IMG/VR virus record: IMGVR_UViG_3300030098_000502
Location: 1 to 26,404 of that record
Reading direction: 5' to 3' (one strand)
Source: a virus
DNA length: 26,404 nucleotides
Under the pieces are notes generated by a model, which was not told where the DNA came from, ran no database searches, and was given only the letters and a program-made list of their open reading frames with translations. Shown one piece after another: positions 459-26,255 of this stretch (position 1 is its first letter; each line of letters opens with the position of its first letter). The position numbers and the translations under genes were made by a program.

Positions 459-489
459 CAAATAAAAATTAATTAATTACATTATATAA
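459..489 (+). promoter_or_regulatory. Putative phage late promoter, copy 1
   Basis: The site reads CAAATAAA (459-466), a 12-base spacer, then ACATTATATAA (479-489), 12 bases before the ATG of the scaffold gene. The same two boxes with exactly the same spacing recur at 2922, 14242, 25367 and 26225, and a weaker form at 15831. The spacing resembles a -35/-10 pair but the boxes are not the host TTTG / TAnnTTTG. Promoter function is inferred from recurrence and position. Confidence 0.65.
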
Positions 490-500
490 AAAAAGAACCT

Positions 501-1217
501 ATGGACATCAAAGAACAAATACTAGTAGCTCTTGGTCTAAATAAAGACGAAGAAGTTAAATTAGCTTGGCAAGCAAAAGGCGAAGATGGTACAATTTATG
601 TATCTACTGCCGAAGAACTTGAAGCAGGCGTAGACATCTCAGTTTTAACTGAAGATGGAACTACAATTTTATTACCAGTAGGCACATACAAGACTGATAC
701 AGGAGTATCATTCAGAGTTGAAGAAGAAGGTATCGTAGCTGAAGTAATAGAATCAGAAACTGAAGAAGAAGTTACTGAAGAAGAAGTTGAAGCATCTGAA
801 TTAGCTGAAGACGATAAAGATGATTACGAAGAAGAAGAAGACGAAAGCCCAGCAGAGAAGGCAGATTGGGCAAAGTCTTACGAAGAGATGAAAGATAGAG
901 TTGATAATCTTGAAGACGCAATAGCTGACATTAAAGCAAGATTAGGCGAAGGTAAAACAGAAGATGTAGAAATGGAAGAAACTCCAGCTCCTTCTGAAAA
1001 CCCTAGAACTAAAACGACTAAGACTACAGAAGTAGTTGAATTTTCAGTTGAAGAATTAAAAGCTGAAAACGAAAGGTTAAAAGCAGAGTTATCAGCAAAG
1101 CCTGCTGAGGCTCCAATCAATACTAATAAATTTAGTGAAGACAGAAAACCTTTAAGCAAAAGAGAATTGTCGAAATTAACAAAACAAGAAAGGTATTTAT
1201 ACGAATTATATAAATAA
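501..1217 (+). CDS. Putative capsid scaffold-like protein
   Basis: This 238-residue protein lies between the prohead protease and the major capsid protein, the usual place for a scaffold. An N-terminal region of about 75 residues, including a stretch rich in DGT and VGTYKTD turns, looks like a small beta domain. It is followed by a very acidic linker (runs of Glu and Asp around residues 78-115), then two predicted helical coiled-coil segments (about 120-150 and 178-198), and a basic C-terminus with KRELSKLTKQ. An acidic, helical, low-complexity body with a basic end suits a protein that binds capsid subunits and is later cleaved by the protease. No enzyme motif is visible. The start ATG is 12 bases after the putative late promoter. 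The scaffold role is inferred from place and composition, not from a recognised domain. Confidence 0.7.
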   Translation: MDIKEQILVALGLNKDEEVKLAWQAKGEDGTIYVSTAEELEAGVDISVLTEDGTTILLPVGTYKTDTGVSFRVEEEGIVAEVIESETEEEVTEEEVEASELAEDDKDDYEEEEDESPAEKADWAKSYEEMKDRVDNLEDAIADIKARLGEGKTEDVEMEETPAPSENPRTKTTKTTEVVEFSVEELKAENERLKAELSAKPAEAPINTNKFSEDRKPLSKRELSKLTKQERYLYELYK

Positions 1218-1244
1218 AAATATTAACATAAAAAAAACAAAAAA

Positions 1245-2150
1245 ATGGCATTAGCAACAACAAGTAATTATGCAGGGAAAGCAGCAGGATTCTACATCTC
1301 GGCTGCATTACGTCAAGCAAACTCTATAGAGTTTTTGACAATGATAGAAAATATCAAGTATAAGAGTAACATTCAAAAAATGGCAGGAGCGAGTATGGTA
1401 GCAGACGCTTCGTGTAACTTTAATGAAGCGGGTACATTAACAATGACTGAAGCAGTTCTTACTCCAAAAAATTTACAAATCAATACAGACCTTTGTAAGA
1501 CTACATTATTAGATTCTTGGGAAGCTGCACAAATGAGAGCAGGAGCAGGTGCTCCACCTCCAGCATCTTTTGATGACTATGTAATTTCTTACTTAGGTGA
1601 GATTATTGCAAACGCAACAGAACAATCTATATGGACAGGTAACGATGCAACAGGAGGAGAGTTTACAGGTTTTGTAGGTGGTGGTGTTGGACACTTAGTA
1701 ACAGATGCTACAGTAGTTGATGTAGCTAAAACAGGTGCAACTTTTGACACTTCAAATATTATAACTAACCTAACAGATACTGTTGCAGCAGTACCAACAG
1801 CAGTATATACTAAAGAAGACTTACATATATATATGTCTCCTAAGTCTTACAGATTATACATAGCAAAAATCTCTGAGCTTGGATATGTAAACGCTTACTC
1901 TATGAATAGAGATTATGATGCAGTATTTGAAGGAATAAAATTAGCTGTTTGTAACGGAATGAAAGATAATGTATTAGTTGCAGCAGAGAGGTCAAATCTT
2001 TTCTTTGGAACTGATTTACTTTCAGACCAAACAAGAATCCAAATGTTAGATATGGCTAACTTAGATGGTTCAGATAATATGAGAGTTGTAGCAAGATATT
2101 CAGGAGGTACGCAAGTAGGTATTGGAGCTGACGTTGTCTTAACTTCGTAA
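1245..2150 (+). CDS. Major capsid protein (HK97-like fold likely)
   Basis: This 301-residue protein has the length and composition of a major head protein. It is rich in Ala, Thr and Asn, has no Cys cluster, and ends in a region (FFGTDLLSDQTRIQM, then MRVVARYSGGTQVGIG) typical of HK97-fold capsid proteins of Bacteroidetes phages. It sits directly after the scaffold-like gene and ahead of a probable tail tube gene. The A-rich leader with a run of A before the ATG fits flavobacterial translation starts, which rarely use Shine-Dalgarno. There is no N-terminal prodomain of HK97 type, so any maturation cleavage by the XkdF-like protease would act on the scaffold or a short end. A stem-loop without a T-run follows the gene. 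The role is supported by resemblance and context; the fold itself was not computed. Confidence 0.85.
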   Translation: MALATTSNYAGKAAGFYISAALRQANSIEFLTMIENIKYKSNIQKMAGASMVADASCNFNEAGTLTMTEAVLTPKNLQINTDLCKTTLLDSWEAAQMRAGAGAPPPASFDDYVISYLGEIIANATEQSIWTGNDATGGEFTGFVGGGVGHLVTDATVVDVAKTGATFDTSNIITNLTDTVAAVPTAVYTKEDLHIYMSPKSYRLYIAKISELGYVNAYSMNRDYDAVFEGIKLAVCNGMKDNVLVAAERSNLFFGTDLLSDQTRIQMLDMANLDGSDNMRVVARYSGGTQVGIGADVVLTS

Positions 2151-2166
2151 CAAATAAATTAAATGA

Positions 2167-2192
2167 AAGTAGGGGGGTAAAACCCTCTACTT
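2167..2192 (+). terminator. Stem-loop after the capsid gene (no T-run)
   Basis: AAGTAGGGGG pairs with CCCTCTACTT (10 pairs, one G-U) around the loop GTAAAA, 17 bases after the capsid stop. No T-run follows, so it is not a classic intrinsic terminator. It may protect the 3' end of the abundant capsid mRNA or partly attenuate transcription into the next gene. Confidence 0.55.
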
Positions 2193-2218
2193 CCTTAACC
2201 TTAAAAACATAAAAAAAT

Positions 2219-2806
2219 ATGGCGTGTACAGCAATAAGCAAGGGAAGAGGGCTAGATTGTAACCGAATATCAGGCGGAATAAAATATGTTTACTTTTCAG
2301 TTTATGATGATTTTGCAAGAGCAGATTGGGCGTATGATTCAACTAATCCGTTAGAAATTGATACTATAGACTTTCAAACATCCACGATATACAGATATAC
2401 TATGCCTTTAGGCGTTGCAAGTTTGACAGATACTATAACAGGGTCAAGAGAAAACGGAACTGTTTTCTATACTCCTACTTTAAATGTAATATTAAACAGA
2501 CTTACAAAAGAAGACCAAAATCAGATTAAGTTATTGGCTGCGACAAAATTAAGAATTTTTGTTCAGCTTAATGCAACTCATACTGCTACAGGGAATGACG
2601 TAATAGTTTGTATGGGAATGATAAACGGAATGGAACTTAATGCAGGAACTATGGATTCTGGAGCTGCTTGGGGAGATAGAGGAGGTTATACTCTTACATT
2701 TGACGGAATGGAGCCATCTCCATTTGCATTTTTAGAAGATGTAGCAGCAGGTGCAGCTCCATTTTCTAACTCAGGTATTTCAGGTTTAAGTATCGTTACA
2801 TCTTAA
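2219..2806 (+). CDS. Probable major tail tube / tail structural protein
   Basis: This 195-residue protein starts MACTAISKGRGLDCNRISGG and has the feel of a family common next to the capsid gene in Bacteroidetes phages. It is beta-rich with many Thr, Gly and Asn, two early Cys (residues 3 and 14), and a C-terminal segment GGYTLTFDGMEPSPFAF. Grouping with the capsid gene, and the strong terminator downstream, suggest a gene made in large amounts, as expected for a tail tube subunit. It could instead be another abundant virion protein such as a head decoration protein; no catalytic motif is present. The start is the only ATG that keeps the conserved-looking N-terminus and has an A-rich leader. 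Confidence 0.6.
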   Translation: MACTAISKGRGLDCNRISGGIKYVYFSVYDDFARADWAYDSTNPLEIDTIDFQTSTIYRYTMPLGVASLTDTITGSRENGTVFYTPTLNVILNRLTKEDQNQIKLLAATKLRIFVQLNATHTATGNDVIVCMGMINGMELNAGTMDSGAAWGDRGGYTLTFDGMEPSPFAFLEDVAAGAAPFSNSGISGLSIVTS

Positions 2807-2831
2807 TCTAATTTGCAGTTTTTATATAGCT

Positions 2832-2882
2832 TGATGAGGGTGGTATGGTTCGACCATATATAGAGTAATCTAGCGTTCATCA
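2832..2882 (+). ncRNA. Structured RNA candidate (three-way junction) in the 3' untranslated region
   Basis: An outer stem TGATGA (2832-2837) / TCATCA (2877-2882) encloses two hairpins. The first is TATGGT / ACCATA (2844-2849 / 2853-2858) with loop TCG. The second is TAGA / TCTA (2861-2864 / 2869-2872) with loop GTAA, a GNRA-type tetraloop. The element lies in the only sizeable gap of the head region, directly before an intrinsic terminator. The pairings are seen by eye; function, and existence as a stable RNA, are inferred. It does not match a tRNA or a hammerhead core. Confidence 0.45.
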
Positions 2883-2886
2883 TAAG

Positions 2887-2914
2887 AAAGGGTGGCTTCG
2901 GCTACTCTTTTTTT
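2887..2914 (+). terminator. Intrinsic terminator after the capsid/tail tube genes
   Basis: GGGTGGC (2890-2896) pairs with GCTACTC (2901-2907) around a TTCG tetraloop closed by C-G, the very stable UUCG type. A further AAA/TTT can extend the stem, and a run of seven T (2908-2914) follows. A putative late promoter begins 8 bases downstream, so transcription probably ends and restarts here. Confidence 0.85.
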
Positions 2915-2921
2915 ATATAAG

Positions 2922-2952
2922 CAAATAAATATACATTTTTTATATTATATAA
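2922..2952 (+). promoter_or_regulatory. Putative phage late promoter, copy 2
   Basis: CAAATAAA (2922-2929), 12-base spacer, ATATTATATAA (2942-2952). It follows an intrinsic terminator and its end lies one base before the ATG at 2954, so the transcript would be leaderless or nearly so if this is a promoter. Confidence 0.65.
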
Positions 2953-2953
2953 T

Positions 2954-3487: not shown

Positions 3488-3496
3488 AAATAAACT

Positions 3497-5572: not shown

Positions 5573-5574
5573 CT

Positions 5575-6150: not shown

Positions 6151-6275
6151 TGAAGAAATATTATAAACCAAAAACAATTAACATAACTAAGCTAAAGTCC
6201 TACTTGGATAAAAAGCCAAACACTAATAAAAATGAAATCAGTACAAGACACCATTCAAGTAGTAACAGCAAATAG
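6150..6275 (+). CDS. Small basic protein, 41 residues
   Basis: This short frame starts with an ATG that shares a base with the stop of the connector gene (TAATG) and overlaps the next small gene by 44 bases. The product is Lys, Asn and Ser rich with no membrane segment. The tight coupling is the main reason to list it; the overlap with 6232-6390 lowers confidence. Function unknown. Confidence 0.35.
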   Translation: MKKYYKPKTINITKLKSYLDKKPNTNKNEISTRHHSSSNSK

Positions 6276-6929: not shown

Positions 6930-6931
6930 TT

Positions 6932-7930: not shown

Positions 7931-7935
7931 TCTTC

Positions 7936-7960: not shown

Positions 7961-7973
7961 CTTTGTTTAATAT

Positions 7974-8005
7974 TTTGTTAGGAATTAAAATATTTTATAT
8001 CTTTG
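7974..8005 (+). promoter_or_regulatory. Host-type (Bacteroidetes -33/-7) early promoter
   Basis: TTTG (7974-7977) is followed after 20 bases by TATCTTTG (7998-8005), fitting the Bacteroidetes primary sigma pattern TTTG-N19..21-TAnnTTTG. Transcription would begin near 8012, giving a leader of about 23 bases before the ATG at 8035. It should drive the early/middle block and is the only complete host-type promoter I found in the window. Confidence 0.8.
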
Positions 8006-8034
8006 CTTCGTAATTAATTTTAAAAAACGAACAA

Positions 8035-8295
8035 ATGGAAACAATATTTAAAAACACTTTCAAAATGAAAGAAGCTACAAACAAAGAAGAAGCTATTATA
8101 TCTATATGTGATGTAATGTCTGAGAATCCTTTATGGTTAAATAAGTGTAGTAGTCAATTATTTACTATAATTTATAACTTACATAATACAAGAAAAAGAA
8201 TGTCTTGGCTAAATACTTGTGATTTTGATAATGTGAGAGATTTATTTATAGAGATTAAAACTGAGTATTATAACTTTCAAGAAGCTAATTGGTAA
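8035..8295 (+). CDS. Early protein of unknown function, 86 residues
   Basis: First gene after the host-type promoter, so probably the first phage protein made. It is soluble, with two Cys near the middle (Cys25 and Cys38) and many aromatic residues, and looks mostly helical. I recognise no domain. First-expressed small proteins are often host-takeover factors, but nothing here shows that. Its stop overlaps the next start by one base (TAATG). Confidence 0.6.
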   Translation: METIFKNTFKMKEATNKEEAIISICDVMSENPLWLNKCSSQLFTIIYNLHNTRKRMSWLNTCDFDNVRDLFIEIKTEYYNFQEANW

Positions 8296-8552
8296 TGGAG
8301 TTTAAAGACAGAATAGTAATAGAAGGTTATCCAATGTCTAAAATTGCAGCTACGACTCCTAAAGCTATCTGTATAGAGTTTATAGATAGGAATAAAAAGT
8401 GGAATACTTGGATTCCTAAAAAGATAATAACAATAAATAGTTCAAAAGACATAAATATTCATTCTGAAGATATTAAAGAAATAAATATATCTTTGCCTGA
8501 ATGGTTTTTACAAACAGAAAAAATGAGGTTAATACTAATACCTAGAAATTAG
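8295..8552 (+). CDS. Early protein of unknown function, 85 residues
   Basis: Starts at the ATG at 8295, overlapping the previous stop by one base; a TTG two codons earlier is a less likely start. It is a small, beta-looking protein with many Ile and Lys and a WNTWIPKK segment, no Cys and no membrane segment. I recognise no domain. It is translationally coupled to the first early gene. Confidence 0.55.
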   Translation: MEFKDRIVIEGYPMSKIAATTPKAICIEFIDRNKKWNTWIPKKIITINSSKDINIHSEDIKEINISLPEWFLQTEKMRLILIPRN

Positions 8553-8574
8553 TAAAAAATAAAACTATATTAAA

Positions 8575-9045
8575 ATGATTAAAAAAAGTAAAGTAACATC
8601 AGCACAGCCTAACGGAACTTGGGAAGGTAAGTTCGGATTAATGTATAAAAACGAGATAGCTTTTGAGAATGGAGATACTGGAGAATACTCTTCTAAAACT
8701 AGAGAGCAAGATAAGTTTGTAGTAGGTCAAGAAACTGAATACGAATTTATAGGAGGTAATTTTCCTAAAGTAAAACCTGTATATCAAAAACCTCAATCTT
8801 TTGGAGGAGGCGGATTTAAAAAAGATGATAACGTACAGAAAATGATTGTAAAGCAGTCTAGCTTAAAAGCAGCAGTTGATTTTTGTAATGAGGGATGTAG
8901 TGTAGAAGATGTTTTAAAAGTTGCTCAGAAGTTTACAGATTGGGTAATGGAAGAAGCTCCAAAAAAAGCAGATTCGTTTGACCAAAAATTAACTAATAAG
9001 ATAACTGAAATTACTAACGGCTCAGCAGACGATTTACCTTTCTAA
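8575..9045 (+). CDS. Single-stranded DNA-binding-like protein
   Basis: This 156-residue protein has an N-terminal beta-rich segment of about 70 residues (WEGKFGLMYKNEIAFENGDT, then VGQETEYEFIGG) that looks like an OB fold. A Gly-rich linker with FGGGGF, a helical part, and an acidic end finishing DDLPF follow. The acidic D-D-x-P-F tail is the hallmark of bacterial SSB proteins, which use it to recruit replication and repair partners. It would coat single-stranded DNA during replication and recombination. It lies directly before the DnaA-like and winged-helix genes. The core OB fold is inferred from pattern only. Confidence 0.7.
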   Translation: MIKKSKVTSAQPNGTWEGKFGLMYKNEIAFENGDTGEYSSKTREQDKFVVGQETEYEFIGGNFPKVKPVYQKPQSFGGGGFKKDDNVQKMIVKQSSLKAAVDFCNEGCSVEDVLKVAQKFTDWVMEEAPKKADSFDQKLTNKITEITNGSADDLPF

Positions 9046-9046
9046 T

Positions 9047-9556
9047 ATGGAACAAGAACTAAACTTTAAGACTCTTTGTCAAATGACTACAAATATGTTA
9101 GAATTGCCTGAAGGTTCTTTAGCATATAAAAGTCGTAGAGAGGAATTACAGATACCTAGAATGGTTGTAAGTGTAGTCTCTAAAATGATAGATAATACGC
9201 ATTTTAATATAATAGCTTCAGGAATAAATAGAGATAGAACTCTCATTAATTATTATATGAAGATGCACAAATCTAATTATAGGTCTTTTCCAAAATATAG
9301 AGATATGTTTAATAAGATATACAACGCATATAAGGACATACAAGGAGCTAAAAGGACTTTTGCAGACAAGTATCATCTAAGAGAGCATTTGAGACAAGGA
9401 GGGGTTCGTCATAGTACAAATCCTCAAACAACTATAAGAGTAAAGTCAGGAAAAGTTAAGATAGATATAAAAGTTTCTTATAGAGATTTTTCTAATCAAT
9501 TAGAATTATGTAAGTTAGCCCTCACAGATTGTAACTATAATATTAATATTTTATGA
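9047..9556 (+). CDS. DnaA domain IV-like DNA-binding protein
   Basis: Residues about 26-95 resemble the C-terminal DNA-binding domain of DnaA: SRREELQIPRMVVSVVSKMI parallels the first helix, and SGINRDRTLINYYMK parallels the GRDHTTV signature helix that reads the DnaA box. No AAA+ ATPase domain is present. It may act as a phage origin-binding protein or occupy host DnaA boxes. It begins one base after the SSB-like stop and overlaps the replication gene by 4 bases (ATGA). The C-terminal 70 residues are basic and unassigned. Confidence 0.6.
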   Translation: MEQELNFKTLCQMTTNMLELPEGSLAYKSRREELQIPRMVVSVVSKMIDNTHFNIIASGINRDRTLINYYMKMHKSNYRSFPKYRDMFNKIYNAYKDIQGAKRTFADKYHLREHLRQGGVRHSTNPQTTIRVKSGKVKIDIKVSYRDFSNQLELCKLALTDCNYNINIL

Positions 9557-10152
9557 CGCAGAAGCCTAACTACTATGCTATAATACCTGCAAAGGTTAGA
9601 TACTCTAGCTTAAAGCCTAATGCAAAACTCCTATATGGAGAGATTACAGCATTAAGTAATAAGTTAGGGTATTGCTACGCAAGTAATAATTACTTTGCTG
9701 AATTGTATGGAGTAAGTAAAAATACTGTATCAAGATGGCTTTCAGATTTAAGTAAGTTAGGATTTATAACAATACAAATAGAACGTAACAAGAATAAAGA
9801 AATTATAAAAAGGATTATAGGTATTGACAAAAAAGTAGATAACCCTATTGACAAAATAGTCAAAGAGAATAATACAAGTAATAATACTACAAGTAATAAT
9901 ATAACTATAAAGGAAAAATTTATTTCTGAGGTTATGAATTTTGACTATCCGAAAAGTATGTTAGAGGACTTTATTAACTATTGGACTGAAGGCAAAAAGA
10001 AAATGAGATACCAAAAACAATCTACATTTGAAATAAAATTACGATTATTGCGTTGGGCGAAAAATGAAACTAAATGGAACAAACCAAAACCAACAATGTC
10101 AAAGCTAGATGCTCAAATAAATGCTTGGCAAGAAGCTAAAAAATTAATATGA
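9553..10152 (+). CDS. Winged-helix replication initiator-like protein
   Basis: The N-terminal 80 residues form a helix-turn-helix/winged helix of the HTH_36 type seen in phage replication proteins: YAIIPAKVRYSSLKPNAKLL, then YFAELYGVSKNTVSRWLSDL and a wing LGFITIQIERN. A poorly conserved Asn/Thr-rich linker (about 108-122, TSNNTTSNN) leads to a helical C-terminal domain with YWTEGKKKMRYQKQSTFE, common in replisome organiser proteins that load the host helicase. With no phage polymerase in the window, this is the likely initiator. It overlaps its neighbours on both sides by ATGA, so the three proteins are probably made together. Confidence 0.75.
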   Translation: MTQKPNYYAIIPAKVRYSSLKPNAKLLYGEITALSNKLGYCYASNNYFAELYGVSKNTVSRWLSDLSKLGFITIQIERNKNKEIIKRIIGIDKKVDNPIDKIVKENNTSNNTTSNNITIKEKFISEVMNFDYPKSMLEDFINYWTEGKKKMRYQKQSTFEIKLRLLRWAKNETKWNKPKPTMSKLDAQINAWQEAKKLI

Positions 10153-10322
10153 AAATTATACCTTTATATCCAAAAGAAATAATTACAGTAGAAGATGATG
10201 AATGTTTATATTGTTTTGCATATATAGATATAGATAAAGGCGAAATATTTTGTTGTGATGAGTGTGAAAGTGCGTTTAATGAAGAAAATCCTGAGCCTGA
10301 ATTAAAAGATATTGAAATATGA
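10149..10322 (+). CDS. Small Cys-rich (zinc-binding-like) protein, 57 residues
   Basis: The ATG overlaps the previous stop (ATGA) and the frame ends in another ATGA shared with the next gene. The product contains CLYC (19-22) and CCDEC (35-39), a spacing that fits a small zinc ribbon, and an acidic C-terminus. A role as an adaptor for DNA or protein binding is possible. Function unknown. Confidence 0.65.
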   Translation: MKIIPLYPKEIITVEDDECLYCFAYIDIDKGEIFCCDECESAFNEENPEPELKDIEI

Positions 10323-10681
10323 AACCACTATACCAAGAAGATATAAAAGAATTAACTGAGAAAGTATTGGATTTGATTGCTAAAACTTCAGTAGAAATAG
10401 GACACAAATCAGACCCTCAAACTATGGCAAGTCTTAGTAAGATATTCGCAACTGATTTAATAAGAGAAAGAAGGTTCGGTAAAATGACTTTCAATCAAAT
10501 AGTAGATGCGTTTCATATCGGAGTAAGATTTGGAAAAGATGAACCATTTTTAAATATTAGAACCTTTTACAAATGGGTATATTCCCATAAAAAAACAATA
10601 GATGATGCTACTTATCAGACAGAAACTTTAAAGATAAAAAATGTACCATATTATCAAGAACCAAAAAAATTATTAAAATGA
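10319..10681 (+). CDS. Conserved-looking phage protein of unknown function, 120 residues
   Basis: Coupled by ATGA at both ends inside the replication block. It is mainly helical; the segment RRFGKMTFNQIVDAFHIGVR followed by LNIRTFYKWVY looks like a folded core seen in Bacteroidetes phages and prophages next to replication initiators. No catalytic motif or Cys cluster is visible. A helper role in replication is inferred from position only. Confidence 0.65.
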   Translation: MKPLYQEDIKELTEKVLDLIAKTSVEIGHKSDPQTMASLSKIFATDLIRERRFGKMTFNQIVDAFHIGVRFGKDEPFLNIRTFYKWVYSHKKTIDDATYQTETLKIKNVPYYQEPKKLLK

Positions 10682-10776
10682 AAAAAGAAGAAAAATATAC
10701 TTGTTGTGGTATAGAGATAACCGAAACAATTAAAGAAAAAGGGCGTTGTCCTAAATGTTTAGAAAATATAAATTAA
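10678..10776 (+). CDS. Tiny zinc-ribbon-like peptide, 32 residues
   Basis: Begins in the ATGA overlap with the previous gene. It carries TCCG (8-11) and CPKC (24-27), a compact four-Cys arrangement typical of a minimal zinc ribbon. Function unknown. Confidence 0.5.
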   Translation: MKKEEKYTCCGIEITETIKEKGRCPKCLENIN

Positions 10777-10777
10777 A

Positions 10778-10837
10778 ATGATAGGTTGGGTAATCATAAC
10801 CGCTATAATTATGTGGATAATACGAGAGTTAAAATGA
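10778..10837 (+). CDS. Tiny membrane peptide, 19 residues
   Basis: Starts one base after the previous stop and ends in an ATGA overlap with the next frame. Nearly all residues before the last four are hydrophobic (GWVIITAIIMWII), so it would be a single membrane span. It could be real or could serve mainly to relay ribosomes to the next start. Confidence 0.3.
   Translation: MIGWVIITAIIMWIIRELK
10812..10820 (-). promoter_or_regulatory. Consensus DnaA box
   Basis: TGTGGATAA is the exact complement of the DnaA box TTATCCACA. It lies inside the tiny frame at 10778-10837, about 1.3 kb after the DnaA-domain-like gene. One perfect 9-mer in 26 kb can occur by chance, and I see no cluster around it, so an origin is only a weak suggestion. 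Confidence 0.25.
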
Positions 10838-10923
10838 AGATATTAACAATCGTATATTTAATACTTGTTTTATTATGTGTATTAGAAGCTTATTTTTGTA
10901 CTAAATTTGAAGACGAACTTTAA
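10834..10923 (+). CDS. Tiny membrane peptide, 29 residues
   Basis: Coupled by ATGA to the preceding frame. One hydrophobic span (ILTIVYLILVLLCVLEAYF) is followed by a short charged end KFEDEL. Probably an inner-membrane peptide; function unknown. Confidence 0.4.
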   Translation: MKILTIVYLILVLLCVLEAYFCTKFEDEL

Positions 10924-10933
10924 ACTATAAGAA

Positions 10934-11245
10934 ATGAAAACAAAAGAAGTAATAAAAAACCTACTAATAAAATATCCTACTTTAAAAGATAGCGATAGTA
11001 GATTAATGGCTAATTATTGGTCTGAAGAATTAAGCAGGAAGAATAAAGATATTGACGAGATGTCTGCAAGAGATTTACTTGGAATGTTTGCTCAAAGTCA
11101 ATTGACTAATCCTGAGACTATTAGAAGAATGAGAGCAAAGATACAAGAAGAAAGTCCTGAGTTTAGAGGGCAAGTATATAATTCTCGCAAAGGTATTATT
11201 CAAGACAAATGGCGATCAGAGTTAGGCTATGAAGTCAATAAGTAA
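10934..11245 (+). CDS. Unknown helical protein, 103 residues
   Basis: Starts 10 bases after the previous frame and overlaps the NinG gene by 17 bases. It is charged and helical, with ARDLLGMFAQSQLTNPETIR in the middle and a basic end with SRKGIIQDKWR. The pattern of a polar helical body with a conserved-looking ESPEFRG turn is familiar from phage genes upstream of NinG, but I can assign no function. A role as a partner of NinG or in replication is possible. Confidence 0.6.
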   Translation: MKTKEVIKNLLIKYPTLKDSDSRLMANYWSEELSRKNKDIDEMSARDLLGMFAQSQLTNPETIRRMRAKIQEESPEFRGQVYNSRKGIIQDKWRSELGYEVNK

Positions 11246-11633
11246 ACTAAAAAAAGAACTTGATAAGTGGTTTAGTCTTTATATAAGGCTCAGAGATTCT
11301 AACGAGTATGGAATGGTACAATGTTTTACATCAGGTAGAGTATATCATTACAAGAGTATGCACGCAGGTCATTTTATGTCAAGAAAAAGACTAGCCACTC
11401 GTTGGTGTGAGACTAATGTACAGCCACAGTCGCCTGCCGATAATCTTTTTGGTCAGGGCGAACAGTATCGGTTCGGACTTCATTTGGACTCAAAGTATGG
11501 AGAAGGTACAGCAGAAGAAATACAGTTTAAGTCTAGGAACACTTTAAAAATGTCAAGAGTAGAATATGAAGAAAAGATAAGTTATTATAAAGAGATTGTT
11601 AATAAATTAAAAAAAGAAAAAGGATTAGAGTAA
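11229..11633 (+). CDS. ninG: NinG/Rap-like recombination endonuclease
   Basis: The core HAGHFMSRKRLATRWCETNV followed by QPQ and a downstream Tyr/Gly-rich FGLHLDSKYG is the NinG (lambda Rap) signature, an HNH-like fold that cuts branched DNA such as Holliday and D-loop junctions. The 134-residue length is shorter than lambda Rap (about 200), lacking much of its N-terminal part, as is usual in Bacteroidetes phages. The lambda-type zinc cysteines are reduced to one before the core (Cys32). Together with the NinB-like gene at 13875 it suggests a recombination-based replication or repair pathway. The gene overlaps the one before it by 17 bases. Confidence 0.82.
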   Translation: MKSISKLKKELDKWFSLYIRLRDSNEYGMVQCFTSGRVYHYKSMHAGHFMSRKRLATRWCETNVQPQSPADNLFGQGEQYRFGLHLDSKYGEGTAEEIQFKSRNTLKMSRVEYEEKISYYKEIVNKLKKEKGLE

Positions 11634-11654
11634 CTTTTTTATTAACTTTGACGT

Positions 11655-12011
11655 ATGATAGTGCCAATATATGCAAATGAAGAACACAAGAACGCTGTAG
11701 AAACCTATCTAGCGATGTGTGATGACTTTGTGCAGGATGTAAGCACTAAAAACAAATACAATTCATATCAAGATGTTTTGCAAATCATATTAGAGTACCA
11801 TAATAATTACGGAGAAGGAAATAGAGAAAATAATTATTGGGCGTGGCTAATGATTATTCCTATCAATGTTACTGTAATGACAAATGGCTTTTTTGCTGGA
11901 ATAGAAACAAAAGGAAATGCAGCAAAAGTTAGGGCGTATAGAGTTGTATTATCAGAAATGTTAGAGAATTTAGTAGCAAAAATTGAAAAGATAGAACCAG
12001 TCAATGACTGA
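11655..12011 (+). CDS. Unknown protein, 118 residues
   Basis: A soluble, acidic protein with helical ends and a hydrophobic middle (YWAWLMIIPINVTVM, about 56-70) too polar at its flanks to be a sure membrane span. I recognise no domain. A TAACTTTG at 11643-11650 resembles the host -7 box only 5 bases before the ATG, but no matching TTTG lies 20 bases upstream, so a leaderless start is unproven. It overlaps the sigma-like gene by 8 bases, so the two are probably co-translated, and it could be its regulator. Confidence 0.55.
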   Translation: MIVPIYANEEHKNAVETYLAMCDDFVQDVSTKNKYNSYQDVLQIILEYHNNYGEGNRENNYWAWLMIIPINVTVMTNGFFAGIETKGNAAKVRAYRVVLSEMLENLVAKIEKIEPVND

Positions 12012-12585
12012 GATATATCTTGAAATATCAAAGTTGTCAGATAAATTTAGGGAAATGACTTATGGTTTGACAACTGATAAGAACGAAGTAGATGAAGTGG
12101 TGCAGGAATTAATGCTATATTTTTTAAGTATGAACCCTGTAACGCTTAAAGAAATTTGGGAAAATGATGGAGAAAAAGGAATAATCAAATATGGAGCAGT
12201 AGTATTAAAAAGAGCGTTAAACAGTAAATATAGTAGATATTATTATAAATATAAAAAATATTACTCGCATATTGACAGCTCTATTTATACTGGTAGTTGT
12301 ACTTATAGTGATGATAATATATACTTTGACAATAATATTAATAAGAGCTTACATAACATTCCGAACCAAGACAATCAAAATAACTGGCAAAAGTTGGAAG
12401 AAATAGATAATACTTTAGAAAAAGATTTTAATTGGTACGACCAAAAGATTTTTGAGTTGTATTATTATGAGGGAAATACGCTAGACTCACTCGCTGAGAA
12501 AACAAAGATAAGTAGGAATAGTTTATTTAGTACAATAGACAAAGTAAGGGAGTTGCTAAAAAAGAAGTTGAATGACGAAAATTAA
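12004..12585 (+). CDS. Sigma-70-like (ECF-type) transcription factor, putative late sigma
   Basis: This 193-residue protein has the layout of a minimal sigma factor. An N-terminal helical region around DEVVQELMLYFLS (about 29-41) resembles sigma region 2. A long Tyr/Asn-rich linker follows (about 75-130). The C-terminal helix-turn-helix QKIFELYYYEGNTLDSLAEK plus KISRNSLFSTIDKVRELLKK resembles region 4, which reads the -35 box. There is no region 1.1 or 3, as in ECF factors. Expressed from the early block, it is the natural candidate to read the two-box motif found before the late genes. It could instead be a terminase-small-like or other HTH protein; region 2 is weak by eye. Confidence 0.6.
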   Translation: MTEIYLEISKLSDKFREMTYGLTTDKNEVDEVVQELMLYFLSMNPVTLKEIWENDGEKGIIKYGAVVLKRALNSKYSRYYYKYKKYYSHIDSSIYTGSCTYSDDNIYFDNNINKSLHNIPNQDNQNNWQKLEEIDNTLEKDFNWYDQKIFELYYYEGNTLDSLAEKTKISRNSLFSTIDKVRELLKKKLNDEN

Positions 12586-12586
12586 A

Positions 12587-12676
12587 ATGTATAATCCTGA
12601 TAAGAAGAACTCGTTTTTTATGCAGTTCGGTTTTGAACAACCTCTGCCTATTAAATATAAAACTAAAAGACAATGA
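12587..12676 (+). CDS. Tiny protein, 29 residues
   Basis: Starts one base after the sigma-like stop and overlaps the next ATG by ATGA. The product has an FFMQFGFEQPLPIKYK core and a basic end. Tight coupling on both sides is the support. Function unknown. Confidence 0.4.
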   Translation: MYNPDKKNSFFMQFGFEQPLPIKYKTKRQ

Positions 12677-13074
12677 AGTTCTTTGTCAAAGAAGAAGTAT
12701 ATCAGGACAGGATAAAGATATGTAAAGAGTGTATTTATTATTCAAAAACTTTAGGACAATGTAAGGTCTGTAAGTGTTTTATGAAGATTAAAGCAAGATT
12801 AGCTCCTCTCGCTTGTCCTCAGAAGTATTGGGATAAAACAACTGAGATAGAAACTCCTGAAGATTTACCACAAGATATAATAGATGAAATAACAAACCTT
12901 TGGCCAGACTTAAAAACAGGGAGAGCAAAAGATGTAGCAGCAAAAAAGAAAATGATAGAGATATATAATACAATACATCATACTAATTATAATACAGGAA
13001 CTAATTGCGGTTCTTGTATTGCGGCGTGTTATGATGGAATAAAAAAACTATATGAAAAATACAATGGATACTAA
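12673..13074 (+). CDS. Cys-rich zinc-binding phage protein (DUF6171-like), 133 residues
   Basis: N-terminal cysteines form CKEC (17-20), CKVCKC (30-35) and ACP (Cys48), with MKIKARLA between, a pattern resembling the DUF6171-like zinc-binding module found in many tailed phages. A helical middle with DLPQDIIDEI leads to a second Cys group, NCGSCIAACYDGI (about 111-123), often seen in flavobacterial phage proteins. The first module may bind nucleic acid or protein. Exact role unknown; the family name was not checked by search. Confidence 0.65.
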   Translation: MKFFVKEEVYQDRIKICKECIYYSKTLGQCKVCKCFMKIKARLAPLACPQKYWDKTTEIETPEDLPQDIIDEITNLWPDLKTGRAKDVAAKKKMIEIYNTIHHTNYNTGTNCGSCIAACYDGIKKLYEKYNGY

Positions 13075-13243
13075 AAGAACTTATCAAGGAATAAAGAATA
13101 TATTAAGACAGCATATTAAAAATAATGTCAGGTCTTTATGGACTTATGAAGATGATAACTTTACTAGCGTATACGCTAACTATGACGGAGATTCTAGAAT
13201 ATATACTCCTCAGCAAATGCTTAAATTAATAGAAAAACTATGA
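13052..13243 (+). CDS. Small protein of unknown function, 63 residues
   Basis: Overlaps the end of the Cys-rich gene by 23 bases, or by 11 if the second in-frame ATG at 13064 is used. The product has WTYEDDNFTSVYANYDGDSR, then a helical end. No domain recognised. It ends in an ATGA overlap with the next small gene. Confidence 0.5.
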   Translation: MKNTMDTKRTYQGIKNILRQHIKNNVRSLWTYEDDNFTSVYANYDGDSRIYTPQQMLKLIEKL

Positions 13244-13383
13244 ATATAATATTTTTAAGTATAGCTATATTTGCAATAGTATTAACAATATGCTTAACAA
13301 TAGTAGAGAGTAAAAGGCGTAAATACGAAAACAATAAATTAAAAAACAATATAAAAAACTTTGACAATGCCAATAGATTATAA
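13240..13383 (+). CDS. Small membrane protein, 47 residues
   Basis: Coupled by ATGA to the preceding gene. An N-terminal hydrophobic span (IIFLSIAIFAIVLTICLTIV, residues 3-22) is followed by a basic, Asn-rich tail. Topology is probably N-out with a cytoplasmic tail. It overlaps the DUF3310 start by 17 bases. Function unknown. Confidence 0.5.
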   Translation: MNIIFLSIAIFAIVLTICLTIVESKRRKYENNKLKNNIKNFDNANRL

Positions 13384-13624
13384 AGAAGAAACAGAACCTC
13401 ATTATTACATAGGTAAAATACATAAATACTCAGCTAAGAATATAGTAGATGATTTTGACCTTAGTCCTTGGACGGCTCAGGCTGTTCAGTATATATTAAG
13501 GGCAGGTAAAAAAGAAGGAAATTCTACAGCACAAGATATAAGAAAAGCTATTAATGTTTTACACTTTGAATTAGATAAGTTGCACGAAGAAGACAAAACA
13601 AAGACAGGAGGATTAGCAAAATGA
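13367..13624 (+). CDS. DUF3310 family protein
   Basis: The 85-residue product fits DUF3310: PHYYIGKIHKYSAKNI at the start, then a helix with AVQYILRAGKK, then DIRKAINVLHFELDK. This domain occurs in many phages and is often described as a nucleotide kinase-like or SaV-like protein, but its activity is not settled. The ATG at 13367 is preferred over a TTG two codons before it because it gives the standard N-terminus. It ends in an ATGA overlap with the next gene. Confidence 0.82.
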   Translation: MPIDYKEETEPHYYIGKIHKYSAKNIVDDFDLSPWTAQAVQYILRAGKKEGNSTAQDIRKAINVLHFELDKLHEEDKTKTGGLAK

Positions 13625-13875
13625 CTTTATATACTTGCGAATGTGGTAAAGAATCTAAAGAAATAAGCAAAGCTACTATTGTTTATAGAGAGGGGAGGTG
13701 GGTATGTAAAGAAGCTCAATGTAGTTGCGGCAAATATATGAATAGCGAACCTAAAGAAGGTATGCCTACATTAAGACGTACAGAGCCATCATTAAGTAAG
13801 AATAGAGATAAGCTATGGGAAGGAGCAAAAGAAAAGCTAATAGGAGAAAGAGGTATTAACGAGCCATTTGATTAA
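13621..13875 (+). CDS. Zinc-ribbon-like protein, 84 residues
   Basis: Cysteines at CECG (6-9), Cys29 and CSCG (34-37) suggest a small zinc ribbon near the N-terminus. The rest is polar, with KLWEGAKEKLIGERG. It is coupled by ATGA to the DUF3310 gene and shares one base with the NinB-like start. Function unknown. Confidence 0.6.
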   Translation: MTLYTCECGKESKEISKATIVYREGRWVCKEAQCSCGKYMNSEPKEGMPTLRRTEPSLSKNRDKLWEGAKEKLIGERGINEPFD

Positions 13876-14258
13876 TGAAGTTTGTAATAAAGGATAATAA
13901 AGATAAACAAAGCTTAATAAACTATCTAAAAGAATTAGGTAATGATTATATAGTAGATGTAAAGAAACAACGTAATAATAGGTCTATGATGCAAAATAAT
14001 TATTATTGGAAATGTATAGTACAAATGTTAGCAGACGAATTAGGGTATTATCCAAATGAAATGCACGATATACTTAAAGTAAAGTTTGCAAGTGAGTGGC
14101 AAAGCATAGAAGTAAATAACAATAAAGTAGGTCTGCAAGTAATCAATAGTACAGCTACAATGGACACTAAAGAATTTGAGATATATGCAGAACAAATAAG
14201 GATATGGGCTTTGAGCGAATTGAATATAAGATTAATGTTGCCAAATGAATATGAATAA
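13875..14258 (+). CDS. ninB: NinB/Orf-like recombination mediator
   Basis: RSMMQNNYYWKCIVQMLADE (about 36-55), the EMHDILKVKFASEW helix, and STATMDTKEFEIYAEQIRIW match the NinB (lambda Orf) layout, and the C-terminal LPNEYE matches its end. Orf binds single-stranded DNA and SSB to help load the recombination machinery. At 127 residues it is close to the usual size. With NinG and the SSB-like protein it makes a lambda nin-type recombination set. A putative late promoter starts inside its last codons. Confidence 0.8.
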   Translation: MKFVIKDNKDKQSLINYLKELGNDYIVDVKKQRNNRSMMQNNYYWKCIVQMLADELGYYPNEMHDILKVKFASEWQSIEVNNNKVGLQVINSTATMDTKEFEIYAEQIRIWALSELNIRLMLPNEYE

Positions 14259-14272
14259 TTTACATTATATAA
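14242..14272 (+). promoter_or_regulatory. Putative phage late promoter, copy 3
   Basis: CAAATGAA (14242-14249), 12-base spacer, ACATTATATAA (14262-14272). The upstream box overlaps the end of the NinB-like gene. The terminase small subunit starts 32 bases downstream, so here the motif is clearly separated from the start codon, which argues for transcription rather than translation control. Confidence 0.6.
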
Positions 14273-14303
14273 TAAACAAGTTGAATAATCAAGTTTTTTC
14301 AAG

Positions 14304-14561
14304 ATGAGTAAACACGGAGGTAAAAGAGAAGGTGCAGGGCGTAAAAGCAAAGCAGAGGAGCAAAAGTTAATAGAACACTTAACTCCTATGAATAGTAAGG
14401 CATTAAAGTCCTTAGAACAAGGATTAGATAAAAAAGAACAATGGGCAGTTAAATTATTCTTTGAGTATTTTTATGGTAAACCTCAGCAGAGGGTAGATGT
14501 AACTACCAATGATGATAGTATTAATATGCCTTTAATAAACTTTGTAAAAACTGAATCTTAA
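14304..14561 (+). CDS. terS: Terminase small subunit-like protein
   Basis: An 85-residue protein directly before TerL. It begins with GGKREGAGRKSKAEE, the basic GAGRK motif common at the N-terminus of small terminase and related phage DNA-binding proteins. Helices with ALKSLEQGLDKKEQWAVKLF and a YGKPQQRVDV end follow. It would recognise the packaging start and regulate TerL. It is shorter than most TerS proteins. Its 3' end overlaps the proposed TerL start by 11 bases in the +1 frame. Confidence 0.75.
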   Translation: MSKHGGKREGAGRKSKAEEQKLIEHLTPMNSKALKSLEQGLDKKEQWAVKLFFEYFYGKPQQRVDVTTNDDSINMPLINFVKTES

Positions 14562-15830: not shown

Positions 15831-15861
15831 AAACTAAATACAAACTTTTTATATTATATAT
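15831..15861 (+). promoter_or_regulatory. Putative phage late promoter, weaker copy
   Basis: AAACTAAA (two changes from CAAATAAA), 12-base spacer, ATATTATATAT. The motif ends one base before the ATG of the tail chaperone gene, as at 2922 and 25367. The spacing is kept although the boxes vary. Confidence 0.45.
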
Positions 15862-15862
15862 T

Positions 15863-16504
15863 ATGAAGGTCAAAATACAGAAGGGCAAAAAGACTAGAAA
15901 TTACAAAGTAATAAGCAGTTGGTCAGAAGTAACTTTAGAAAAATGGCTCAGATTAGTAGACCTTGAAGAGAAGGGGGCTTCGGAGGAAGCTTTGGGAACG
16001 ATAACTGAATTATCTAATATACCTAAGAAACTTGTAAAGGAATTAAGTATAGGAGATGTTTCAGCTATTATGGAAAGAGTGGGGGTGTTACAGCACCAAG
16101 CAAATAGTTCTTTAAAAAGGATAATTGAAATAGAAGGGAAGGAGTACGGATTCCATCCAAGTTTAGATAGAATAACTCTCGGAGAGTTTGCAGATTTGGA
16201 GACGTTTTTAAAAATAGGGATTCACAAACATTTGCCTGAAGTGATGGCAATACTGTATAGGCCAATAGTTGAAAAGAAAAATAAATTCTATACTATTGAA
16301 AAGTACGATGGGAATATAGAAGTCCGTACAGAGATAATGAGAAAGATGAAAGCAGAAGAAGTGCAATCGGCACTGGTTTTTTTTTGGAGTTTCGTCAAAG
16401 AACTCTTAATAGCTTTGCCATCATCTTTGACAAAGAGGATGAAGGTAATGACAGAGCGATTGCAAGCGAAAGCTTCGCAGAAAAATGGGGATGGTTCGGA
16501 GTGA
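15863..16504 (+). CDS. Tail assembly chaperone, short form (gpG-like)
   Basis: A 213-residue soluble helical protein following TerL. Its body (SWSEVTLEKWLRLVDLEEKG, then NIPKKLVKELSIGD, and ITLGEFADLETFLKIG) is typical of Bacteroidetes phage tail chaperones that keep the tape measure soluble during tail building. Near codon 172 lies a run of nine T that allows a -1 shift into the frame ending at 16641. Without the shift translation ends at 16504 with a basic tail. The two products would correspond to lambda gpG and gpG-T. Assignment rests on this two-frame layout and sequence style. Confidence 0.75.
   Translation: MKVKIQKGKKTRNYKVISSWSEVTLEKWLRLVDLEEKGASEEALGTITELSNIPKKLVKELSIGDVSAIMERVGVLQHQANSSLKRIIEIEGKEYGFHPSLDRITLGEFADLETFLKIGIHKHLPEVMAILYRPIVEKKNKFYTIEKYDGNIEVRTEIMRKMKAEEVQSALVFFWSFVKELLIALPSSLTKRMKVMTERLQAKASQKNGDGSE
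16378..16431 (+). promoter_or_regulatory. Programmed -1 ribosomal frameshift site
   Basis: The heptamer T TTT TTT (16378-16384) lies in the correct phase of the upstream frame (GTT TTT TTT TGG). Nine bases downstream GTCAAAG (16394-16400) can pair with CTTTGAC (16425-16431), a 7-pair stem that could stimulate slippage. The -1 frame then runs 85 codons to 16641. This is the classic arrangement of tail chaperone genes. A length error in the T9 run is the main alternative. Confidence 0.75.
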
Positions 16505-16641
16505 TGCATAGACTCTGTAATCAGGATATAAGTAAGTTGGAAAGTATAACAAACTTGAGTTTATTAGAGTGCCTAACTTGGTTAAGTTATGAGACAGATT
16601 TAAACTCACAAAATAAAGTAAAACTGAATGGTAAACAATAA
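16384..16641 (+). CDS. Tail assembly chaperone, frameshift extension (gpT-like)
   Basis: This frame has no good start of its own and overlaps the short form by 121 bases in the -1 phase. After the slip, 174 residues of the short form join these 85 for a product of about 259. The extension has AEKWGWFGVMHRLCNQDISK, then LLECLTWLSYETDL, a Trp-rich helical pattern familiar from the T-domain that binds tail tube subunits. Expression is expected at a low fixed ratio to the short form. The last 14 bases overlap the next gene. Confidence 0.75.
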   Translation: MEFRQRTLNSFAIIFDKEDEGNDRAIASESFAEKWGWFGVMHRLCNQDISKLESITNLSLLECLTWLSYETDLNSQNKVKLNGKQ

Positions 16642-17524: not shown

Positions 17525-17526
17525 AT

Positions 17527-18563: not shown

Positions 18564-18567
18564 AATT

Positions 18568-19998: not shown

Positions 19999-19999
19999 T

Positions 20000-23793: not shown

Positions 23794-23805
23794 AAATATA
23801 AGATT

Positions 23806-25362
23806 ATGGCAAGAGCAGTATTAGAAGCACAAATAGACAGTAATATAGGCGATGTAAATAAAGGCATAGAACAAGCAGCTGAGAATACAGACAAACTAGC
23901 AAAAGGAGCAAAAAAAGCAGAGAAGGGATTTGGTGGGATTAGAGGTGCTATTAAAAAAGTGGGTACAGCACTTAAAGCAGCAGGTATAGGTCTTATAGTG
24001 GCAGCATTTGCAAAACTATTTGAGATGATGGGGCAGAATCAAAAAGTGATGGATGGATTTAATACTGCTATGACTGCAATAAATACAGCTTTTCAAGACT
24101 TTATAAGTTTGATTATGGATAATGTAGAACCAATTACCAATAACTTTAAAGAGCTTTTTGAGAATCCTACGAAGAAGATTAAAGAAATGAGTGCTGCTAT
24201 AAAAGAAGGGTTGATTGATAGATTCAATGAATGGATTGAAGCTATGTCAATAGCAGGAAAAGCGTTAGGGCATCTAGTTAAAGGAGAGTTTAGCGAAGCG
24301 TGGGGAAAATATAAAGAAGCAGCAGTAGAGATGGTAGATGTTTATACAGGAGTAGATGGAACAGTAGAGAAAGTTTCTGAATCAGTAAGTAATTATACGA
24401 AGAAAGTATGGGATAATGCAAAGGCACAAGTAGCAGCAAATAAAGAAGCTAAATTCGCTGAGTTAGAGGTAAGAAAATTACAAGCTGAGAATCTTAAACT
24501 AGCAGAAGACGAAAGACAAATTAGAGATAATGTAAATTTGACTTTTAAAGAACGTATTGAGGCTAACGAAAGACTAAGTAAAATATTAGAAGAACAACAG
24601 GCAGCACAAAAAGCAGCACTACAAACAGAGATTGATGCCTTAGCACTAGCAGTTCAAACTAATGGAAATGACGAACAAAAATTAGCATTATTAGCAAAAG
24701 AAATAGAGATGCTAGAACTTGAAGAAGCTATTAACGGACAAATGTCTGAACAACTAACAAATCAAGTAGCCTTAGAAAACGAATTAAGAGACGCTAAAGT
24801 ACAAACTTCTTTAGATGGTATGAGTGCTAGAGAAAGAGAATTAGCAGAGCTAGAAGCTAGTTATGATGAACAAGTAAGATTAGCACAAGCAGCAGGTGAA
24901 AGCACAACTGCAATAGACAAGAAATTTGCAAAAGATAAAAAGAAAATAAAGCAAGACCAAGTAAATGAAGAACTATCAGCAGTATCAGGACTATCAGGAG
25001 CATTAGCGACTTTAGCTGGAGATAATAAAGAGTTAGCAGCAGCTTCAGCTATTATAGATACTTATGTAGGTGCGAATAAAGCATTATCTGCATCTCCACC
25101 ACCTTTCAATTTTGTGGCAGCAGCAGCCGTAGTCGCAGCAGGTCTAGCAAATGTATCTAAAATATATTCTACAGATTCAGGAGGAGGAGGAGGAGGTACA
25201 GCACCTCCTGCGAGTGCAGGTCCTGCTCCTCAAATGATGTCAGGAGAATTTGACTTAGCAGGAGGAATAGAACCTGAGCCAGTTAAAGCTTACGTTGTAA
25301 CTGATGAGATGAGTAACAGTCAAAACCAATTAGCTAATATAAGACGTAGAGCTACAATTTAA
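23806..25362 (+). CDS. Tape measure protein
   Basis: A 518-residue Ala/Lys/Glu-rich protein with the usual tape measure layout. The N-terminus is helical with repeated AKGAKKAEKGFG-like stretches; a hydrophobic helix lies near residues 55-72 (AAGIGLIVAAFAKLFEMM); a long coiled coil spans about 205-345; and a hydrophobic Ala-rich segment (FVAAAAVVAAGLANV) precedes a run of six Gly. It sets tail length and occupies the tail lumen. Using about 0.15 nm per residue it implies a tail of roughly 75-80 nm. It sits about 7 kb after the chaperone pair and not next to it, which is unusual. No lysozyme or peptidase domain is visible. Confidence 0.75.
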   Translation: MARAVLEAQIDSNIGDVNKGIEQAAENTDKLAKGAKKAEKGFGGIRGAIKKVGTALKAAGIGLIVAAFAKLFEMMGQNQKVMDGFNTAMTAINTAFQDFISLIMDNVEPITNNFKELFENPTKKIKEMSAAIKEGLIDRFNEWIEAMSIAGKALGHLVKGEFSEAWGKYKEAAVEMVDVYTGVDGTVEKVSESVSNYTKKVWDNAKAQVAANKEAKFAELEVRKLQAENLKLAEDERQIRDNVNLTFKERIEANERLSKILEEQQAAQKAALQTEIDALALAVQTNGNDEQKLALLAKEIEMLELEEAINGQMSEQLTNQVALENELRDAKVQTSLDGMSARERELAELEASYDEQVRLAQAAGESTTAIDKKFAKDKKKIKQDQVNEELSAVSGLSGALATLAGDNKELAAASAIIDTYVGANKALSASPPPFNFVAAAAVVAAGLANVSKIYSTDSGGGGGGTAPPASAGPAPQMMSGEFDLAGGIEPEPVKAYVVTDEMSNSQNQLANIRRRATI

Positions 25363-25366
25363 AAAT

Positions 25367-25397
25367 CAAATAAATAACAAATAAATACATTATATAA
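25367..25397 (+). promoter_or_regulatory. Putative phage late promoter, copy 4
   Basis: CAAATAAA (25367-25374), 12-base spacer, ACATTATATAA (25387-25397), ending one base before the ATG at 25399. It starts the unit that runs through the protease. Confidence 0.65.
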
Positions 25398-25398
25398 T

Positions 25399-25617
25399 AT
25401 GCCGTGTACTAAATGCAAAGAAGGAAAATACAAATGGGGCAAGACAGGTTCTTGCGAGTACGATACTAAAGAAGAATGCGAAAAAGCTAATAAGGATTAC
25501 TATAAAAAAAAGAATACTACTATGAAGCAATATCCAACACCACTAGGAAAGACCTATGAAGAATACGCAAAAGAATTAAAAGAATATAATTTAGGTAATA
25601 TAAAAAATATATTATAA
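25399..25617 (+). CDS. Small Cys-rich protein, 72 residues
   Basis: The N-terminus MPCTKCKEGKYKWG, then SCEY and ECEK, gives four Cys spaced for a small zinc-binding or disulphide-stabilised knot. A helical, charged C-terminus with TYEEYAKELKEY follows. Similar N-termini occur in Bacteroidetes phage proteins near the protease and portal. Its ATG abuts the putative late promoter, and its stop lies one base before the protease start. Function unknown. Confidence 0.65.
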   Translation: MPCTKCKEGKYKWGKTGSCEYDTKEECEKANKDYYKKKNTTMKQYPTPLGKTYEEYAKELKEYNLGNIKNIL

Positions 25618-25618
25618 T

Positions 25619-26242
25619 ATGAAAGAAACTAGAATAGTAGAACTCGTAATAGCAGATGATTCACAAGAGTTAGCAATAGACGCTATTAGCTTAGTAGAAT
25701 CTCCTGCAATAGAACAGGACTTCGTATTTTTTGGAAAAGAAAAAAACAACTTAACATTCGCTAAGGTAGATGAAGAAAAGCGTATGCTAATAAGTCCTGC
25801 GTTGATTCCTAATAAACAAATATTTAGATACGACCCTAATACTGATTCAGACTACTATGTTTACTTTAGTCGTGAGACAGTTAGAAAGGCATCTGAATTA
25901 TATTTAAAACATAACAATCATCACAAAGCTACTCACGAGCATAATGAAAGAGTAAGTGGAGTATTGACTGTAGAATCTTGGATTATAGAAGACACTAAAA
26001 AAGATAAGTCTTCTCTTTATGGATTTTCTTTGCCTAAAGGAACTTGGATGGTAAAAATGAAAATTGAAAATGATGCACTATGGCAAAAGATTAAAGCAGG
26101 AGAATTAAAAGGTCTAAGTATAGAAGGCTACTTTACTAATAAATTTGAAGCTATGCAAAAGAATAACCAAAAGCCTACAGATGCTGAAATATTAGCAGCT
26201 CTTAACGAGATAATAAAGGAAAATCAAATAAAAATTAATTAA
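25619..26242 (+). CDS. Prohead protease, XkdF-like (short allele)
   Basis: A 207-residue serine protease of the XkdF-like Peptidase_S78_2 type. KATHEHNERVSGV (103-115) holds the probable catalytic His106, ESWIIED (119-125) an acidic position, KGTWMVKMKI the core strand, and GELKGLSIEG (161-170) the probable nucleophile Ser167. It would cut the scaffold and possibly the capsid during head maturation. Compared with the copy at 1-447, this one carries a roughly 326-base deletion that removes the helical tail; its last codons (ENQIKIN) read into the neighbouring promoter and stop in its spacer. It lies before the scaffold and capsid genes, as is usual. Confidence 0.85.
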   Translation: MKETRIVELVIADDSQELAIDAISLVESPAIEQDFVFFGKEKNNLTFAKVDEEKRMLISPALIPNKQIFRYDPNTDSDYYVYFSRETVRKASELYLKHNNHHKATHEHNERVSGVLTVESWIIEDTKKDKSSLYGFSLPKGTWMVKMKIENDALWQKIKAGELKGLSIEGYFTNKFEAMQKNNQKPTDAEILAALNEIIKENQIKIN

Positions 26243-26255
26243 TTACATTATATAA
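26225..26255 (+). promoter_or_regulatory. Putative phage late promoter, repeat copy of copy 1
   Basis: CAAATAAA (26225-26232), 12-base spacer, ACATTATATAA (26245-26255), identical to the element at 459-489. Here the upstream 13 bases belong to the coding end of the shortened protease gene, so the deletion stopped just short of the element. Confidence 0.6.

Follow-up and report, generated by a model that had tools for sequence, protein, structure and literature searches.

Candidate late promoters in Bacteroidota-type phages and a phage-encoded ECF-like sigma factor proposed to read them

Known phage sigma factors and the promoters studied here

Phage-encoded sigma factors with late promoters of their own are known from 7-11, where the promoter is bipartite, and from phiEco32, where it consists of a single element (PMC8948821). 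The sigma of 7-11 (SaPh711_gp47) acts together with the host polymerase, and this one sigma serves several late promoters (GTAAtg-16-aCTA) placed before late genes; in phiEco32, gp36 is paired with an AT-rich element (tAATGTAtA) at middle and late promoters, and transcription starts 6-8 bp downstream of the element (PMC8948821). The stretch of DNA analysed here, a viral contig of 26,404 bases (the window), has both sequence features of this class, a sigma-family protein and a repeated motif that stands before late operons only. As in 7-11, a phage sigma working with host polymerase is proposed, in our case from sequence, and a bipartite promoter recurs before the late genes. The 7-11 system differs in its boxes and spacing, in its enterobacterial host and in its start sites, which lie 6-9 bp from the element, and the part of the published account available to us does not mention a leaderless arrangement (PMC8948821); our searches gave no match of the window sigma to that of 7-11. 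The phiEco32 promoter lacks the second box found in the window, and gp36 is described in the available text as without region 4 homology (PMC8948821), whereas the window protein has a clear region 4 fold.

Compared with promoters of the Bacteroidota host sigma-A (TTTG / TAnnTTTG; PMC6847099), the window sites share a -10-like register and an AT-rich element near -28, but their second box has no TTTG. We consider it very likely that five sites in the window are late promoters, read by a phage ECF-like sigma with the host core polymerase and giving mostly leaderless transcripts. In the open-access literature we found no published account of these promoters, of those of the P12024 phages discussed below, or of phage-sigma late promoters in Bacteroidota phages. 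As far as that literature shows, the sigma family and its promoter are new, and so are their occurrence in Bacteroidota-type phages, the existence of two parallel sigma/promoter pairs and a match of promoters to start codons so tight that late mRNAs are predicted to be leaderless.

The two-box motif in the window and in related contigs

A preliminary description had reported the motif CAAATRAA-N12-AYATTATATAA, with an exact 12-base spacer, at six places, and both the coordinates and the spacer proved exact, including those of a weaker site at 15831. All six sites are where they were listed, but only five are independent. The contig end (26086-26404) is a repeat of positions 1-638 that is 91-95% identical but has lost part of the sequence by deletion, and in the near-identical contig G011 (99.8%) window position 26209 is joined directly to 303, leaving a single copy of the junction. 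Because the contig ends overlap and G011 has one copy, the sites at 459 and 26225 are one promoter, and the second scaffold promoter (26225-26257, plus strand), which lies in the redundant contig end, duplicates 459-491. The two versions of this protease-scaffold junction have diverged and the end copy is about 320 bases shorter, as if the sequences of two strains had been joined in the assembly of a circularly permuted genome.

When up to three mismatches were allowed, the pattern matched the window six times (five times without a mismatch, the sixth time with three), always on the plus strand; dinucleotide shuffles gave an expectation of 0.40 matches, and none of 100 shuffles reached six. 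A position matrix of 35 positions, derived from 86 non-redundant sites of relatives with the window's own clade left out, scored 20.7-30.6 at the six places and found nothing else on either strand, and 30 third-order Markov simulations produced a mean of 0.07 matches and a top score of 12.9. The excess over shuffled sequence of the same composition, and the restriction of matches on the two strands of this genome and its relatives to plus-strand sites upstream of late genes, are what had been expected of a genuine promoter motif. As aligned with the sites of relatives, the motif represents the version, in this genome, of a more general consensus, YAAAYWAA-N12-TTYCTATTATATA-N-T-R(+1), in which AC or AT replaces CT in the window's clade. 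In register with box 2, YAAAYWAA occupies -32 to -25 and is followed by T-rich sequence up to -13, by CT (AC or AT in the window's clade) at -12/-11 and by ATTATATA at -10 to -3, after which come any base, a T and a purine at +1. Box 2 reads ATTATATA at all window sites and does not fit the host -7 element TAnnTTTG.

All five promoters lie on the plus strand. The scaffold promoter (459-491) has box 1 at 459-466, box 2 (-12 to -3) at 479-488 and a predicted +1 at A491, which would give a 10 nt leader to the scaffold ATG at 501, with the capsid protein gene (1245) next. At the virion-protein/portal promoter (2922-2954; box 1 2922-2929, box 2 2942-2951), the predicted +1 falls on the A of the ATG at 2954, which would make the transcript leaderless. 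Directly upstream of this promoter is a terminator-like hairpin with a T tract (2884-2914, plus strand; -15.3 kcal/mol, z -5.67), and so strong a hairpin fits the idea of separate late units. The TerS promoter (14242-14274; box 1 14242-14249, box 2 14262-14271) has a box 1 that overlaps the 3' end of gene 13875-14258, and from its predicted +1 at A14274 the leader to the TerS ATG at 14304 would be 30 nt. At the tail promoter (15831-15863; box 1 15831-15838, box 2 15851-15860) the predicted +1 again falls on the A of an ATG, at 15863, without a leader; its box 1 has the weaker AAACTAAA form, which is usual at that position, relatives also having TAAACTAAA there. The promoter of the Cys-rich peptide and protease genes (25367-25399; box 1 25367-25374, box 2 25387-25396) is likewise predicted to be leaderless, its +1 being the A of the ATG at 25399. 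In the matrix scan of the window, which found these five places only, the motif was absent before operon-internal genes, for example the capsid gene at 1245, and before early genes.

The leader of TerS also contains a 12-base near-palindrome, TTGAWTAATCAA (14281-14292), which occurs once per genome, is confined to the TerS leader and is found in contigs G001, G008, G010 and G011 as well; a function in packaging or as an operator is conceivable. As RNA, the leader folds poorly (z -0.36). Near the end of the tail-block gene at 15863, a nine-T run (16377-16400) is overlapped in another frame by an open reading frame at 16384-16641, and is likely the frameshift site of a tail chaperone.

A search of a viral collection with gene 12004-12585 of the window, which encodes the sigma-like protein described below, returned 320 related stretches, and we examined 15 related contigs (17.5-31 kb) over all or almost all of their length. 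Each of the 15 has two to five matrix matches, on the coding strand only and none on the minus strand, and they precede the same late genes, which extends the original observation of sites before head, packaging and tail genes: TerS, the scaffold gene (MDxKxQILVALGL), the MIQ.. virion gene, the gene of the MPC..KC peptide and the MKVK.. gene at the head of the tail block, with a METEQKR.., MKQQVKI.. or MKLKIN.. gene in the TerS region instead of TerS in some relatives. We also scanned the viral collection for box 2 plus TATG only, without demanding box 1; this yielded at least 120 stretches, and 94 of the 119 examined encode proteins of the window's phage family, the others being mostly without box 1. 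No isolated phage in the phage collection carries the window's sigma. Bacterial genomes gave a single match, contig L237 (PAPR01000004.1) in a 'Pseudooceanicola' metagenome-assembled genome, which has much of the phage gene set, a sigma 53% identical to that of the window and the same promoters, and is probably a misbinned phage.

Predicted start sites and leader lengths

We aligned 122 stricter sites on box 2 and found that at 66 of them +1 coincides with the A of an ATG. At the 56 others, which are partly related by descent, a purine at +1 is not forced by an ATG, and yet the base is a purine in 55 (A in 44, G in 11, T in one), with a T at -1 in 41. Bacterial transcription characteristically starts at a purine preceded by a pyrimidine. 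The predicted transcription start is therefore the purine 2 bases past the second box, and not 5-9 bases past it as the preliminary description had supposed; with the latter spacing, three of the five genes would have an ATG that lies upstream of the transcript.

Leader lengths in relatives vary while the protein starts do not: orthologues of the MIQ.. gene have leaders of 0, 2 or 13 nt, those of the MPC.. gene 0, 12 or 13 nt and those of the MKVK.. gene 0, 2 or 7 nt, each with its protein start unchanged, and leaders of 10-27 nt (scaffold) and 26-30 nt (TerS) are found for the other two genes. This bears out the earlier argument that a varying distance to the start codon speaks for transcription. 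The motif often adjoins an ATG, and Bacteroidota lack Shine-Dalgarno sequences and use A-rich start contexts instead (PMC6847099), as might be expected if it were a translation signal, either Kozak-like or an A/T-rich ribosome entry element. Such a signal would hold a constant distance to the ATG, and leaders of 0 to 30 nt before fixed protein starts make this highly improbable; we rejected it for that reason and for the purine at +1 in 55 of the 56 sites that have no ATG there. The motif is also missing from operon-internal genes such as that of the capsid, and it reaches 32 bases upstream. Its confinement to the forward strand and to late operons, its conservation across the family and the variable leaders all favour a phage-specific late promoter, as first suggested.

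A motif that is short, AT-rich and ends at the start site would also suit a phage single-subunit RNA polymerase of the T7 or mitochondrial style. The chance of this is close to negligible, however, as no RNA polymerase gene was recognised among the proteins scanned, and only two proteins come up to the size of such an enzyme, the portal (691 aa) and a tail-block protein (970 aa) that has no polymerase match. Three of the five late mRNAs of the window (virion/portal, tail and Cys-rich peptide/protease) are predicted to be leaderless. Leaderless mRNAs are rare in Flavobacterium psychrophilum (5.5%; PMC9723704), so that a share of about 5% there compares with a predicted share of over half of the sites here.

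A candidate recognition factor and its counterpart in Nonlabens phages

The likely recognition factor of the late promoters, which the preliminary description did not point out, is the product of gene 12004-12585 (plus strand), an ECF-like sigma of 193 aa with region 2 at about residues 1-75 and region 4 at about 125-190, encoded in the early block (8035-14258). Residues 22-192 match the PHROG family 'RNA polymerase sigma factor' (E 7e-4), and 23 of the 32 members of the sigma family match Sigma70_r4 (E <= 0.01) and 16 match Sigma70_r4_2; the window protein itself scores 17.5 bits against Pfam Sigma70_r4, under the gathering cut-off of 24.1. Its AlphaFold model (mean pLDDT 65.6) has helical blocks at 2-73 and 125-188 that are better modelled than the linker (residues 75-128, under 50), and as modelled the protein has the ECF layout of region 2, linker and region 4 within about 200 aa or less. 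The first Foldseek matches are ECF sigmas (SigL, AlgU, sigmaE; best E 6e-3, probability 1.00), and VIA gave Z 10.6 to SigL and Z 9.2-10.2 to region 4 structures (rmsd 1.7-3.7 A), values to be read with care, since matches of helical models may be unspecific when Z is under about 13. Searches of solved structures by sequence, with a single sequence and with a profile, gave nothing useful for this protein. Despite the modest Z, we favour the sigma identity because the list of fold matches is consistent and there are sequence matches besides.

According to the mechanism that we propose, host RNA polymerase would transcribe the early block from a host-type promoter and so allow the phage sigma to be made, and this sigma would then bind the host core enzyme and steer it to the late promoters. 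There the role of the -10 element would fall to box 2 (TTYCTATTATATA, with AC or AT for CT in the clade; about -12 to -3) and that of the upstream element to box 1 (YAAAYWAA, -32 to -25), and the virion-protein/portal, tail and Cys-rich peptide/protease operons would begin leaderless, with leaders of 10 nt for the scaffold and 30 nt for TerS. The sequence itself shows the sites with their order, geometry and conservation, the sigma-like protein in the early block, the host-type promoter before that block and the joint change of the promoters; we infer the binding of the sigma, the timing, the actual start sites and the leaderless translation. The distance from box 1 to box 2 is a few bases shorter than the usual -35 distance; box 1 may be a region 4 contact or an AT-rich helper element, and host promoters have an AT-rich element centred at -28 (PMC6847099).

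The proximity of box 1 to box 2 compared with a standard -35, and the presence of two boxes, would also suit a phage activator bound at box 1 with host sigma-A using box 2 as its -7/-10. Mu C and P2 Ogr are the model for activator-dependent phage promoters of this kind. We regard such an arrangement as very unlikely in the window: the host -7 element (TAnnTTTG; PMC6847099) contains a TTTG that is missing from box 2, no activator-like gene was recognised except for a replication-initiation-like HTH protein, and a sigma-like gene is present that accompanies the motif across the family.

Bases -12/-11 vary with the clade of the phage sigma. The window's clade, with sigmas that are 72-100% identical, has AC or AT at every site, and outside it CT is found at 192 of 196 sites, a count in which some contigs appear twice. 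The promoters within a genome all shift together, as expected from a change in one trans-acting factor; the change is confined to one branch and so is confounded with descent. No single sigma residue tracks the change by separating the groups cleanly, and the residues that come near to doing so are mostly in the low-confidence linker, in addition to Ser/Thr176.

The nearest isolated phages are P12024S and P12024L of Nonlabens (Inhavirus; NC_018271, NC_018272), with a terminase at 62%. They also have a sigma gene at the corresponding position before the terminase gene, and late promoters in the same register to the ATG, but the sigma-like protein is a different one, above the Pfam Sigma70_r2 cut-off (PF04542), and the promoter boxes are AAAACAAA followed by CGTTAATA. 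AAAAC and GTTA are 23 bases apart in 18 of the 24 matches, on the forward strand only. When the two sigma families were compared by hhalign (probability 23%, E 9e-4), the alignment was limited to 48 N-terminal residues, and the two are at best distantly related. A crude k-mer count gave no comparable fixed-offset motif in Riemerella phage CRP6, although its terminase is related.

These phages bear on whether an alternative (ECF) sigma of the host, rather than a phage protein, reads the promoters. Flavobacteria have several such sigmas, and in Flavobacterium psychrophilum ECF promoters are held to be marked by a CGT box at -10 (PMC9723704), which resembles the CGTTA box of the P12024 phages. 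The window's motif and the phage sigma co-occur in one phage family, however, and the two lineages differ in both sigma and promoter; even though these differences could reflect different hosts, we give a host sigma only a slim chance. It is reasonably probable that the two lineages, each with its own ECF-like sigma, both begin late transcription on the A of the start codon or right beside it and thus make the capsid, portal, packaging and tail operons largely as leaderless mRNAs in hosts whose own mRNAs rarely are leaderless. The early-to-late switch would in that case change the mode of translation start as well as transcription. For a large group of uncultured phages (the 320 related stretches) this proposes a concrete switch with a named candidate factor and with RNA start sites predicted at single-base precision. 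Since these promoters are matched to start codons, they would be natural promoters for probing leaderless translation in Bacteroidota, and the two sigma/promoter pairs are candidate orthogonal expression tools for hosts that have few.

The early block is preceded by a host-type promoter, TTTG-N20-TATCTTTG (7974-8005, plus strand), found with the consensus of PMC6847099, while a scan with the sigma-70 consensus gave 80 matches where 76 were expected and was uninformative. This promoter and the nearest isolate lead us to infer a Bacteroidota-type host. Besides the sigma gene, the block encodes a DnaD-like replication initiation protein (9553-10152) and a NinG-like endonuclease (11229-11633). At 11640-11657, TAACTTTG-ACGT-ATG places a host-type -7 box almost at the start codon of gene 11655, and the early transcript of that gene may also be nearly leaderless.
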